From a virus: DNA of 33,222 bases. A program made the position numbers and the translations under genes. A model generated the notes under the pieces. That model had not been told where the DNA came from and ran no database searches. It saw only the letters and a program-made list of their open reading frames with translations. Where the stretch lies: IMG/VR virus record IMGVR_UViG_3300042398_000322, positions 1-33,222 of that record; one strand, 5' to 3'. Position 1 is the first letter of the stretch; every line of letters begins with the position of its first letter. This document shows positions 1-33,222 of the stretch, in pieces.

Positions 1-25
1 AATACTCTCTGTAAGGATACTTTTG
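1..25. repeat. Terminal direct repeat (left copy)
   Basis: The first 25 bases are identical to 33198-33222. Two reading frames (TerL/intein and the nested HNH gene) stay open and make continuous protein domains when 33197 is joined to base 1. The repeat is therefore best read as the assembly overlap of a circular or permuted genome, not as a biological terminal repeat. Confidence 0.93.
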
Positions 26-408
26 CCATTCTTTTCTCCATTGTTGAAGGTCTGCCTCCCTTGCTTCATCATGTGATCTATATTCTCTCTGAATGTCACC
101 CACTCCAAATTCTCCGCACAATTGTTGGCTCTGTTGTTGTCTATATGGTTGACCTGTGGTTTGTTGTCCGGATTCGGCACAAATGTCTCTGCTATAATTC
201 TGTGCATCTTTACAGTCTTGTAACTGCCATTTATCAGTATCATTGTCCTTAGATACCCATTCGCATCCTTCGCTGGTTTCATTATCCTGACTGAATCGTC
301 TCCTTTTTTCATCTTGTACATAAGTGCCGATAACCTTCCAAGATTGCTCACTTGATACCTCCCACCCGAACCAATGACCTCTTTCCAACATTCGTTTGGC
401 AATGACAT
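1..408 (-). CDS. NUMOD4-HNH homing endonuclease nested out of frame in the intein (continues at 33222)
   Basis: ATG at 406-408 opens a 178-codon frame that lies +1 relative to TerL. It starts MSLPNECWKEVIG. Residues 8-27 match the NUMOD4 pattern (W-x-x-V-x-G, then YQVSNLGRLSAL). An HNH core follows: H69-R70, VNHIDNNRANN (N87-H88-I89-D90, N96), NLEWVTFREN (100-109) and H112. This is the usual order of free-standing phage HNH homing endonucleases. In-frame ATGs at 426 and 450 are alternative starts after an upstream stop at 478-480. An AGGAAG lies about 18 bases before the 408 start. The third frame of this strand is closed (stops at 66-68, 192-194, 249-251). Expected role: cut intein-less terL so the intein can spread. 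Confidence 0.88.
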   Translation of the reverse strand, partial: MSLPNECWKEVIGSGGRYQVSNLGRLSALMYKMKKGDDSVRIMKPAKDANGYLRTMILINGSYKTVKMHRIIAETFVPNPDNKPQVNHIDNNRANNCAENLEWVTFRENIDHMMKQGRQTFNNGEKNGKSILTESI

Positions 409-745
409 CTGCCTTAATATATCCATCTTCCTGCAAAAGTTTGTGTCCATATGTACAAGTGATTTTTTTGTTGTCACTTAATACAAATGTAATTACTTTA
501 TGCCTTGAATGGTCAGTCTTGTATATGAACTTATCAACAACTTTTCTTAATACTGTGTTGTAATCATTGTCAATGCTGTAAACAAGTTGACCTGGTTTAA
601 TATCTTTAATTTGCTTATACCCATCATTGCATTTAACAAGAGTTTCACCAGTAAAGCATCTTGATCCTCCTTGCATAACAGAGATGCGCTTGTCGCTTTC
701 GTTTAGGATTTCGTAGATCTTGTTAGTCTGTAAGGTAGCATTCAT
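1..745 (-). CDS. terL: Terminase large subunit, N-extein plus first part of its intein (continues at 33222)
   Basis: ATG at 745 is the only possible start, because an in-frame TAA lies three codons upstream (752-754). Residues 1-29 are the N-extein and end in QGGSR, the first half of a Walker A motif. Cys30 (codon 656-658) begins an intein: block A reads CFTGETLV and a block B-like stretch TCTYGHKLLQ follows about 65 residues later. From about base 409 down to base 1 the frame stays open but yields only a Gln-rich sequence with no recognisable domain. That stretch is occupied by a real HNH gene in the +1 frame. The reading frame crosses the end of the window and resumes at 33197. The whole precursor is 682 residues: extein 29 + intein 301 + extein 352. 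Confidence 0.92.
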   Translation of the reverse strand, partial: MNATLQTNKIYEILNESDKRISVMQGGSRCFTGETLVKCNDGYKQIKDIKPGQLVYSIDNDYNTVLRKVVDKFIYKTDHSRHKVITFVLSDNKKITCTYGHKLLQEDGYIKADVIAKRMLERGHWFGWEVSSEQSWKVIGTYVQDEKRRRFSQDNETSEGCEWVSKDNDTDKWQLQDCKDAQNYSRDICAESGQQTTGQPYRQQQSQQLCGEFGVGDIQREYRSHDEAREADLQQWRKEWQKYPYREY

Positions 746-30435: not shown

Positions 30436-31893
30436 TCAGTTCGGCATTTCCTCTCCGACTCCATCTTGGGATGAAGAGTCATCACCATTGACCATATCAT
30501 CTCGTCCGTAGTCCATGCTGTTATTTGTTCCATCAGGTACAGTTAAATCCATCCCAACTTGATCAAGCCTTACAAGTCCACCATTTACATATGAATACTC
30601 ATAAGCACCTTCCTTCTCTGAGTAGTTCATAGCTACGCGCTTCTCATCAAAGGTCAACCAGTTTGCATCACGAAGTGAACGGGTCATTCTCTCCATATCT
30701 TGTTGCATCTCTGGAAGTGCCGTAATATCAAAATCTATATACAAGTCCTCACCATATTGTGGAACTAACCATTTGTTCAGCTCATCACGCAATTGGCACA
30801 ACTTTGGAACAATTGTATTTGTAACAAGGTCACGCATTGCGTTCTGGTAGTTGTTGTAGCTTGATGTATCTGTGTCAAACAACACAGCAGGCAAACCGAA
30901 TACCCTACACCATTGATGCATGGACATTTGCATTGTCTTTACCAACTCCATATCAACACTACTCAAACCAAAGTTAAGGTAGTCCCAAGGTGTTTGGAGT
31001 ACATCAATCCTACCTTTGTTTTGTGTACCATTCACATCATCATTGAGCTTCCTCTTAATTAAGTTTGCTTGCTCCATTGATGGTTGAGCAGAGATTGAAC
31101 CCACAACCTTTGGAGTCAATGCTCCCTTTGCACCACCATTGTATGCCATCATCGCGGAGGCATCAGCAGCAGCATTTGACATTCTCAGAGTCTTGTAAGA
31201 GGCTCTCAATGGTGATAAGCCTCTAAGGTGAGACCTGGTGCTTGCATTGAAGTCTGGATTCCATGTTTTCCATTGGCATACCCGACTTTTCTCTATGTCA
31301 ATGCCTTGGTCAACCATTAGCTTATACCCAAGGATGCCATATAGGTCATTTGGGTCTGGGTAGATGTCAAGGAACTGCGTTGGAAGAACGAACATCTCCA
31401 ACACCTTGTCACCGCTTATTCCGGTGTTGCCGTAAATGTTACCCTCACCAGAAAGGAAATGGTAACCAATTAGGTTTTCAAGGAACTGATCCTGTGCTTG
31501 TCCAGGGTTGGGTCGCTCCAATAATTTAGCAAGAGGAGTGTCCATAACCACATTCTCAGAGTATGCGTTCTTCCTCGCCATTATGGCTTGCTCGTATGCA
31601 CCTTGTCCGGCTTGCAATCCTCTTGAGAGTTGTTTGTACCTCATCAATGATGTCCTTGCTTTCTCACCATTGTTCAAGCGGTACACATACCAAGGTATGC
31701 TTGCTGACTTCCTTGCAAGAAAGCTCACAATGGCATACACATCAGCATTGCCAAGGTATCCATCCTTTACATAACTATCTTGATTGTATTGTTGTAGAAC
31801 TGCACCATTTATACCTTGAAACGAAGGAGGAACATTTTGATTTGGATTCAACCCCTTCTTCTTACCAAAAATATCAAATAGACCCATTTTCAT
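30436..31893 (-). CDS. Portal protein (HK97 family)
   Basis: 485 residues. GNADVYAIVSFLARKSASIP (about 49-68), FGLSSVDMELVKTMQMSMHQ, WCRVFGLPAVLFDTDTSSYN, MRDLVTNTIVPKLCQLRDEL, and LNWLVPQYGEDLYIDFD-like end of the clip/stem region are those of HK97-type portals. It forms the 12-mer through which DNA enters. Its ATG is next to the terL stop. MKMGLFDIF allows a second start at residue 3. It is followed by the minor head gene after 44 bases. Confidence 0.9.
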   Translation of the reverse strand: MKMGLFDIFGKKKGLNPNQNVPPSFQGINGAVLQQYNQDSYVKDGYLGNADVYAIVSFLARKSASIPWYVYRLNNGEKARTSLMRYKQLSRGLQAGQGAYEQAIMARKNAYSENVVMDTPLAKLLERPNPGQAQDQFLENLIGYHFLSGEGNIYGNTGISGDKVLEMFVLPTQFLDIYPDPNDLYGILGYKLMVDQGIDIEKSRVCQWKTWNPDFNASTRSHLRGLSPLRASYKTLRMSNAAADASAMMAYNGGAKGALTPKVVGSISAQPSMEQANLIKRKLNDDVNGTQNKGRIDVLQTPWDYLNFGLSSVDMELVKTMQMSMHQWCRVFGLPAVLFDTDTSSYNNYQNAMRDLVTNTIVPKLCQLRDELNKWLVPQYGEDLYIDFDITALPEMQQDMERMTRSLRDANWLTFDEKRVAMNYSEKEGAYEYSYVNGGLVRLDQVGMDLTVPDGTNNSMDYGRDDMVNGDDSSSQDGVGEEMPN

Positions 31894-33222
31894 TTATATT
31901 GCCCCCCAAGTTATCTTAGGGATTGTTAACTTACTAAAAATGCTATATCGTAAGGCATCAAGTATGTGGTCACCAAACTTTACGGGTGAATCAAGTTTAT
32001 TGCCATTTCTATCGGTTTTCCACCGATAATTCTTCAATTCCTTTAGTAAATTTACACTATCTTGATGAATAAACAAGGGAGTGCCTTTTATAGTCCTAAT
32101 TCCTTCAGTCACATCTTTATTTGCGTGCTTGGCATTAAACCCGTTTCTCACCAACTCCTCAATGGTTTTTGGCTCGGCTGCATCGCAAAATATCTCATCG
32201 TACGGGTCAATATTAAGAAGCTTTAGCCTATCCACCAAATCATTTGTGGTCAACCTGGTTTCGTAGAGTAATTCCTGCGCATAGGCAGCACCCTCAACAA
32301 AGGTCACCTTTACTAATGCACTTGGCACATTAAACCCAAAGTCCAACCCATACACCACTTCACCATCTTCTGGCATCTCGGCAGTTGTCTTGTAGTGAGT
32401 ATATATCAAGTCCTGACTCAAGCCACGTTCACCAAGACCATAGATTTGCCAGTAGTTCGGGTCTGCATCCTTCAATCTTTCCAATTCGTCAACCAATTCT
32501 TTAGGGAGAAATGGGTTGTCTCTAAAGGTAGTGATGTTGAAGTCAGCATCATCCCTTGGTATGACTGAGTCATAAATCCAACTTGCCACATCAGAAGGAT
32601 TGTAGTCAATCACTATCTTACCCTCAGTTCTCATGATCAATTGCATCCAAGCCTCATAGCTGAGTTCATTTGCCTCGTTGCAGAAAAGGTAAGTCCTTGC
32701 CCTACCCCTTATCTTTTGGGGTTGATCAGCAGACACAAATTCAACTGTATTCCCATTCAATGAGTAAATCTGCTCAGTCTTGTTGTGGTTGTCCTCGCTG
32801 TAAATGTTCAATTTAGTAAGTATGTCCACAAAGTCTCTGAGAACAGACCCTTTTATTGATGGAAGCGATTGCCTTACTATTGTGAGAGTCTTGTTGTTTT
32901 CTTGAAGCAACTTTACAATGAACCAGATAAGTATGTTGTAGGTCTTGCCTGAATTATGAGAAATTATATTTTCCTCAGTAACAAAGTAATTGTGAAACTC
33001 CTCTACCTCTATATCATAAACTGGTTCATCAATCTCGTGATATATAATTTCTTTTATATCATTAAAGTCTAAACAACGTTTTTCCAACTTCTGCCCCTCA
33101 AAATATCCTTTATCGTGCAAGTCTTTACCCCATACTTCTTTGCCAAATCCTTCGCCATTACCACATACGGTTTGTATTCTTCGCGTATAGCTCTTACAAT
33201 ACTCTCTGTAAGGATACTTTTG
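31894..33222 (-). CDS. terL: Terminase large subunit, rest of the intein plus C-extein (continues from base 1)
   Basis: This is the packaging ATPase/nuclease that cuts and pumps phage DNA into proheads. The frame enters from base 1, so an apparent TTG start at 33120 is not a start. The intein C-terminus shows block F (VYDIEVEEFHNYFV) and block G (NIISHN), followed by Ser at the +1 position. Splicing joins GGSR to SGKT and restores Walker A (mature residues 26-33). Further motifs in the 381-residue mature protein are an acidic Walker B-like LFCNEANE (about 118-125) and nuclease acidic residues in YGLDFG (D233), FCDAAEP (D286) and GDHILDALRY (D357, D361). The layout fits PBSX/Terminase_3-type TerL, whose P-loop is near the N-terminus. 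The stop abuts the portal ATG. Confidence 0.93.
   Translation of the reverse strand, partial: QKYPYREYCKSYTRRIQTVCGNGEGFGKEVWGKDLHDKGYFEGQKLEKRCLDFNDIKEIIYHEIDEPVYDIEVEEFHNYFVTEENIISHNSGKTYNILIWFIVKLLQENNKTLTIVRQSLPSIKGSVLRDFVDILTKLNIYSEDNHNKTEQIYSLNGNTVEFVSADQPQKIRGRARTYLFCNEANELSYEAWMQLIMRTEGKIVIDYNPSDVASWIYDSVIPRDDADFNITTFRDNPFLPKELVDELERLKDADPNYWQIYGLGERGLSQDLIYTHYKTTAEMPEDGEVVYGLDFGFNVPSALVKVTFVEGAAYAQELLYETRLTTNDLVDRLKLLNIDPYDEIFCDAAEPKTIEELVRNGFNAKHANKDVTEGIRTIKGTPLFIHQDSVNLLKELKNYRWKTDRNGNKLDSPVKFGDHILDALRYSIFSKLTIPKITWGAI
33069..33222 (-). CDS. NUMOD4-HNH homing endonuclease, C-terminal part (continues from base 1)
   Basis: Residues 137-178 continue without a break across the circular joint. 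They carry a helix-turn-helix tail typical of these enzymes (LTESIVRAIREEY, then LAKKYGVKTCTIKDIL and GRSWKNV). The stop is TAG at 33069-33071. It lies just where the recognisable C-terminal Hint segment resumes in the TerL frame, so the gene fills the intein linker almost exactly. Expression would need internal translation initiation on the terL message, or a minor promoter; I see no strong one. Confidence 0.87.
   Translation of the reverse strand, partial: KSILTESIVRAIREEYKPYVVMAKDLAKKYGVKTCTIKDILRGRSWKNVV
33198..33222. repeat. Terminal direct repeat (right copy)
   Basis: Exact copy of bases 1-25. The unique genome length would be 33,197 bp. The joint falls inside the intein of the terminase large subunit gene. 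Confidence 0.93.

Follow-up and report, generated by a model that had tools for sequence, protein, structure and literature searches.

A phage terminase intein with a putative homing endonuclease gene overlapping it in the +1 frame

The terminase gene (terL) of a metagenomic tailed phage very probably houses a mobile intein with a homing endonuclease encoded by a gene of its own, placed in the +1 frame within the endonuclease-insertion loop. The phage is represented by IMG/VR record IMGVR_UViG_3300042398_000322, and the whole stretch of 33,222 nucleotides analysed is referred to here as the window. The window case belongs to a widespread family, and no fewer than three further types of endonuclease show the same trick.

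Terminase locus and intein

Both ends of the window share an exact 25-bp repeat (1-25 and 33198-33222), and the genome is therefore a circle of 33,197 bp. Its gene content is that of a tailed phage and includes genes for a portal protein (PF04860), a Mu-F-like head protein, a primase-polymerase, and a methylase. With the repeat trimmed, terL forms an open frame of 682 aa on the minus strand, running from ATG 745 to base 1 (1..745) and on from 33197 to the stop at 31894-31896 (31894..33197). This frame matches terminase PF04466 (2e-22), and Pfam detects both Terminase_3 and Intein_splicing in its 5' part. The portal gene lies directly 3' of terL (30436..31893, minus strand; PF04860, 9e-48).

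The terL product reads MNATLQ...QGGSR, then C...HN, then SGKTYN..., which places the intein within the Walker A loop. The N-extein (659..745) comprises 29 aa ending in MQGGSR. The C-extein (31897..32952), beginning SGKTYN, contains the ATPase and the RNase H-like nuclease (Terminase_3/Terminase_3C). Between them, the 301-aa intein starts at the C1 codon at 658, runs to base 1 (1..658), and continues in the open terL frame from 33197 to 32953, where it ends in IISHN (32953..33197). Its Hint N-part covers about 93 aa (380..658), as delimited by Pfam Hint/PT-HINT, AlphaFold, and Foldseek; the Hint C-part, NDIKEI..HN, covers about 37-40 aa (32953..33063), as delimited by AlphaFold pLDDT and the family profile. 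All these features are on the minus strand. A first-pass annotation, made from the letters alone, had given the halves 83 and about 40 residues; its C-part agrees with ours, and its N-part was too short.

Evidence for the intein is drawn from profiles, structure prediction, and conserved residues. In the terL frame, Intein_splicing (PF14890) scores 40.3 bits against a cut-off of 35.8 (3.6e-10), and Hint (PF01079) scores 34.6 bits against 29.7 (1.9e-8). AlphaFold assigns a pLDDT of about 80-90 to intein residues 1-90 and about 76-82 to most of the Hint C-part, with a disordered linker (about 25) between the folded Hint ends, and Foldseek matches the terL intein to solved mini-inteins. Across the family, C1, the penultimate His, and the Asn are each kept in 35 of 35 inteins, and the +1 residue is Ser in 34 and Thr in 1. 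The block B motif T-x-x-H occurs in the window intein as CTYGH, a block that a simple pattern catches in only 28 of the 35. Empty alleles are common: among the 80 nearest terL homologues (84-99% identical), 76 are free of the intein at precisely the R/S codon boundary and read QGGSR/SGKTYN. By its splicing residues, Hint domain, and empty alleles, the insert classifies as a class-1-type intein.

Nested endonuclease gene

The linker between the Hint halves holds no endonuclease domain in the terL frame, nor any other Pfam domain in a Pfam scan, as the first-pass annotation had supposed. The nuclease is encoded by the same bases in the +1 frame. Its gene starts at ATG 408 (1..408, minus strand) and continues from 33197 to the stop TAG at 33069-33071 (33069..33197, minus strand), giving a product of 178 aa with Pfam matches to NUMOD4 (1.4e-6) and HNH_3 (4e-9). 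The same gene, with these limits, had been proposed in the first pass, along with the view that it fills the linker almost exactly; that description needs the qualification that the gene also overlaps the last ~10 codons of the Hint N-part.

Among solved structures, the HNH profile has one match, I-HmuI (1U3E; E 1.6e-16). At the positions aligned with I-HmuI D74, H75, and N96, which we take to be active-site residues, all 39 of the nucleases compared carry N, H, and N. The AlphaFold model of the HNH protein is poor (pLDDT 37), so the fold assignment rests on similarity to I-HmuI. With NUMOD4, HNH, and the catalytic residues present, the nested gene can be assigned on sequence grounds to the I-HmuI/NUMOD4 type of homing endonuclease.

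Two frames kept open

The absence of stop codons from the host (terL) frame is a property that synonymous recoding of the nested gene destroys. Recoding used synonymous codons of the same phage, with 20,000 simulations per gene. In the window, 0 host-frame stops are observed against 17.3 expected, and the third frame has 20 stops. Throughout the family, the observed count is again 0, compared with 9-26 (mean 16.8) after recoding, and zero stops were reached in 0 of the 20,000 simulations for any gene. Chance openness is thereby ruled out. Table 11 already leaves the host frame open, so no alternative genetic code is needed. The host register is interrupted in every one of 70 free-standing HNH homologues.

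Codon usage points to the same pressure. A third-base T before codons beginning AA, AG, or GA occurs in 0 of 1304 instances in nested genes and in 1353 of 2984 (45%) in free-standing homologues, and it is avoided in the former because a T there makes a host-frame stop. At other sites, third-base T is used alike (48% in nested against 51% in free-standing genes). Among close relatives, substitutions at HNH codon positions 1, 2, and 3 number 26, 23, and 129 over 1581 codons, a pattern normal for coding in the HNH frame and reversed in the host frame; the first-pass annotation had proposed such a frame-by-frame comparison of rates. The host-frame linker identity of distant pairs is 0.222, compared with 0.208 expected from the HNH protein alone. 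In mid-distance pairs, it is 0.313 against 0.282 (mean z 1.1), an excess that shared ancestry at synonymous sites yields too. Taken together, stop avoidance, codon positions, and linker identity indicate that the HNH frame is selected for its protein, whereas the intein frame is kept merely open. The intein-frame linker is under almost no residue constraint apart from openness. The recoding and linker-identity comparisons thus bear out the earlier claim that the linker, stop-free in the TerL frame, is bound to stay open in two frames at once.

Relatives and recurrence of the offset

The same +1 offset occurs in 38 non-redundant phage inteins (the tree set, including four members from a later search). 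Their HNH proteins range in identity from about 99% to below 40%, and the host terminases are very different; in all 38, the intein frame is open, and splicing and nuclease residues are conserved. Four linear contigs (L001-L004; HNH 97-99% identical) read straight through the joint of the window, so the frame does not depend on the assembly, a point on which the first-pass annotation had advised a check. Ten further contigs, with HNH identity down to 59%, have the same offset, and profile searches reach very different terminases and one Bacteroidetes MAG contig. Of the fetched copies with an adjacent Hint N-half, 85 of 85 have the HNH in the +1 frame and none has it in frame with the intein, the arrangement that the first pass had suggested looking for. 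The Hint frame is open in 83 of the 85, the other two being a fragment of the window and one split intein. Two long HNH ORFs (L124 and L037) were considered as in-frame inteins and, on inspection by eye, are not inteins. No annotated phage with the terL version was found using the inteins of the window, L211, or L218.

Several individual contigs depart from the common pattern. In L221, the N-terminal part of the HNH is lost, and the intein frame (246-aa intein) is still open, a stage of decay. L206 has a terL intein C-half at the contig end with no nested HNH visible nearby, possibly a mini-intein or an intein with another nuclease. The same terL carries a second, unrelated intein of about 240 aa near its C-terminus in L004 (5644-5880) and L197, with junctions ..FGDH/CFVGDT..VLVHN/CDALRYS. 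In L124 (895-2269, a Bacteroidales MAG), a related HNH lies in frame inside a QueC-like protein with no intein visible.

A sister set consists of split inteins in P-loop proteins (L069/L250, L251, L267, and L249). Their homologous HNH starts in the same +1 register and overlaps the end of the N-part, the host frame stops about 99-101 aa past Cys1, and the C-part has an ORF to itself. In L069, where split intein and HNH span 985-1798, the broken frame contains 12 TGA, 6 TAA, and 2 TAG; since all three stop codons occur, the gene is truly split. A host gene broken between the Hint halves is confined to L249, L069, L251, and L267, and is found neither in the window nor in its 37 relatives. Free-standing HNH genes also fall within the nested clade (L031, L033, L034, and L036) or near its base (L041 and L055), and all six adjoin an intein-free terL, immediately upstream.

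A different kind of interruption was seen in intein-free terL genes. A stop-containing insertion at or next to the Arg codon breaks the Walker A loop in 17 of 73 terL genes homologous to those of L055/L031, as in L396 (=L055; ~1180-1240), L400, L403, L412, L430, L477 (=L031), L418, L471, L473, L398, and L406. Insertions range from hairpins of 38-44 nt to one as short as CGC TGA CGT, and some form stable hairpins (L477, -26.8; L430, -22.1; L400, -17.0 kcal/mol). The terL sequence 3' of the insertion is under purifying selection (for example, 89 synonymous against 20 non-synonymous codon differences), and in L055/L396 and L031/L477 terL is closely preceded by an HNH from the same family. By analogy, these genes look like bypass or stop-hop sites of the phage T4 gene 60 type, at about the place of the intein. 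In T4 gene 60, translational bypass is accompanied by a 5' homing endonuclease (PMC5009743). The likeness lies in the free-standing HNH relatives just 5' of terL and in the Walker A hairpin with a stop after the take-off codon. Bypass, putative here, is a different device from an intein, apparently with the same target.

Mobility of the element

Compared per 100 bases of DNA, the window intein and those of L001-L004 share 93-100% identity, whereas the adjoining exteins often reach only 79-85%. Conservation is just as high in the Hint N-part, most of which lies outside the overlap, and this indicates recent transfer rather than overlap constraint. L005 presents the converse, with a TerL 96% identical and an intein at the 70% level. 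Common empty terL alleles together with near-identical inteins in diverged terL genes indicate that the element moves, and the nested nuclease probably spreads the intein.

Other endonucleases hidden in inteins

Nine more continuous inteins, in terminases and helicases, hide other endonucleases; each has an Intein_splicing match above the Pfam cut-off and no nuclease domain in the host frame. Eight of them use the +1 frame: L272, L284, and L290 for DUF559; L273, L285, and L291 for an HNH (PF01844) that has zinc-finger-like cysteines; and L287 and L300 for a weaker PF01844 match, below the cut-off. In L310, LAGLIDADG_2 occupies the +2 frame. Openness of the host frame is improbable by chance in each of the nine (P 0.002 in L287). 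Unannotated examples also exist in cultured phages, namely Vibrio phages CP-T1 (L391) and 1.194.O (L392), Corynebacterium phage phi673 (L394), Pseudomonas phage MR14 (L395), and phage Clown (L393), where an annotated helicase or terminase houses the intein. The alternative-frame proteins of these five were assigned by motifs, without a Pfam scan. Openness has a P of 0.002 in MR14 and 0.00015 in Clown (GC 0.66), and Nahant Vibrio phages near-identical to 1.194.O share the arrangement.

Overprinted inteins are likely, in our judgment, to represent a general and unrecognised class of phage mobile element. NUMOD4-HNH, zinc-finger HNH, DUF559/Vsr-like, and LAGLIDADG nucleases would have been captured repeatedly as alternative-frame genes in the Hint loop, with openness maintained by stop avoidance alone. 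Such elements would be neighbours of the split-intein fractured genes, and the terL nuclease family would also be paired with bypass-like hairpins at seemingly the same Walker A target.

Proposed mechanism and alternatives

We infer that two separate proteins are made from the overlapping frames. The first frame would yield TerL-HintN-linker-HintC-TerL, from which the Hint halves, folding together, would excise the 301-residue intein and ligate TerL; splicing through Cys1, the His-Asn pair, and the +1 Ser would restore the Walker A loop. The linker would be a passive, unstructured by-product whose sole duty is to contain no stop codon. From an internal start, the second frame would yield an I-HmuI-type NUMOD4-HNH nuclease as a free protein. 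This nuclease may cut or nick the Walker A site of terL alleles that lack the intein; repair would then copy the whole intein together with the HNH gene into the empty allele.

The main rival to an internal start is programmed +1 frameshifting out of the TerL-HintN frame, which would give a TerL-HintN-HNH fusion and no free nuclease. A shift is possible within the 45-126 nt over which the HNH frame is open 5' of its first conserved residue. Start codons are also weak in several members: in the family of the window, the HNH start is ATG or TTG with several upstream candidates, and a Shine-Dalgarno sequence is weak or absent, as is common in Bacteroidota. Yet almost every member offers an in-frame start candidate, a slippery motif common to them was not seen, and the HNH ORF of the split relatives begins near its own start. 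Moreover, the DUF559-type inteins of CP-T1, 1.194.O, phi673, and MR14 have a Shine-Dalgarno sequence well spaced from the +1 ATG, at 5-8 nt. Frameshifting is accordingly regarded as unlikely, and initiation within the intein gene is preferred.

Less probable still is a state without current homing, in which the HNH would be a dead passenger and the stretch of open host frame a vestigial linker. The partial loss of the HNH in L221 would fit such a state. Against it stand the catalytic residues kept in every nuclease compared, the clustering of substitutions at HNH third positions, and the recent spread of near-identical inteins among diverged terL alleles. It is about as doubtful, if not slightly more so, that the host-frame linker is a functional domain and that something else preserves the HNH frame. 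The slight excess of host-frame identity at mid-distance would favour this view, but distant pairs sit at expectation, and the lack of a Pfam match, the predicted disorder, and the reversed codon-position pattern all argue the other way. Two compensating indels, from sequencing or assembly error, could fake a frame offset in a metagenome record whose gene crosses the joint, and the first-pass annotation had named this risk. None were found: the offset is repeated in dozens of independent contigs from several sequencing projects, including one bacterial MAG contig, and stops are avoided along the entire overlap. The independent contigs rule out such an error, whose probability is negligible. 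The reading retained is that of a mobile intein with a separately initiated +1-frame nuclease.

Relation to known systems and significance

Separation of intein and endonuclease between two genes has a reported precedent. Dassa et al. (2009) reportedly described fractured genes, in which the two halves of a split intein have a free-standing homing endonuclease gene between them. The likeness is a separate endonuclease gene between Hint halves, and split relatives of the same HNH exist. There, the host gene is broken and has to be spliced in trans, whereas the open host frame of the present case permits cis splicing. Passages of PMC6801210 and PMC3229294 cite such fractured-gene split inteins.

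For inteins in general, the rule is an endonuclease domain that is in frame and sits at a single conserved loop, with the C35 site between the Hint halves as the insertion point (PMC6801210). PI-SceI and PI-PfuI resemble the terL element in that Hint halves flank the endonuclease at the C35 site and in homing into conserved codons. In those inteins, the endonuclease is an in-frame domain of one protein, whereas here it is a separate overlapping gene, and no member of the family has the endonuclease in the Hint frame. I-HmuI belongs to the same fold family, with aligned catalytic positions conserved, but resides in a phage group I intron rather than an intein.

The closest published parallel, and the only near match in the full-text literature searched, is the ShiLan domain, an out-of-frame HNH in a phage methylase, described expressly as without splicing domains (PMC11855218); the insertion type also occurs in phage Applejack (PMC12613952). 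In both ShiLan and terL, the HNH gene occupies an alternative frame and adds no stop to the host gene, and the distribution of ShiLan is likewise patchy and homing-like. ShiLan lacks intein motifs and a splicing domain, and its insertion is thought to remain in the protein. In contrast, the terL insert has all splicing residues and complete flanking Hint parts, sits in an essential gene, and carries a nuclease of the NUMOD4/HNH_3 family. The first-pass remark that no such case had been described thus holds for inteins and fails for the trick itself. An out-of-frame endonuclease gene within an intein appears to be undescribed, none having been found in the full-text literature searched, outside which lies an actinophage intein preprint (10.1101/2025.01.02.630785) with non-canonical intein architecture in its title.

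The arrangement contradicts the textbook view of the endonuclease as a domain of the intein. Through it, nuclease genes that stand alone may enter or leave inteins in a simple way, without protein integration, and one shared overlap connects free homing genes with both classical and split inteins. As a natural example of a long same-strand gene overlap, the arrangement is unusually clean: one frame is functional, and the other is selected for openness only. Even in cultured phages, Corynebacterium phage phi673 among them, annotation pipelines overlook such nucleases.
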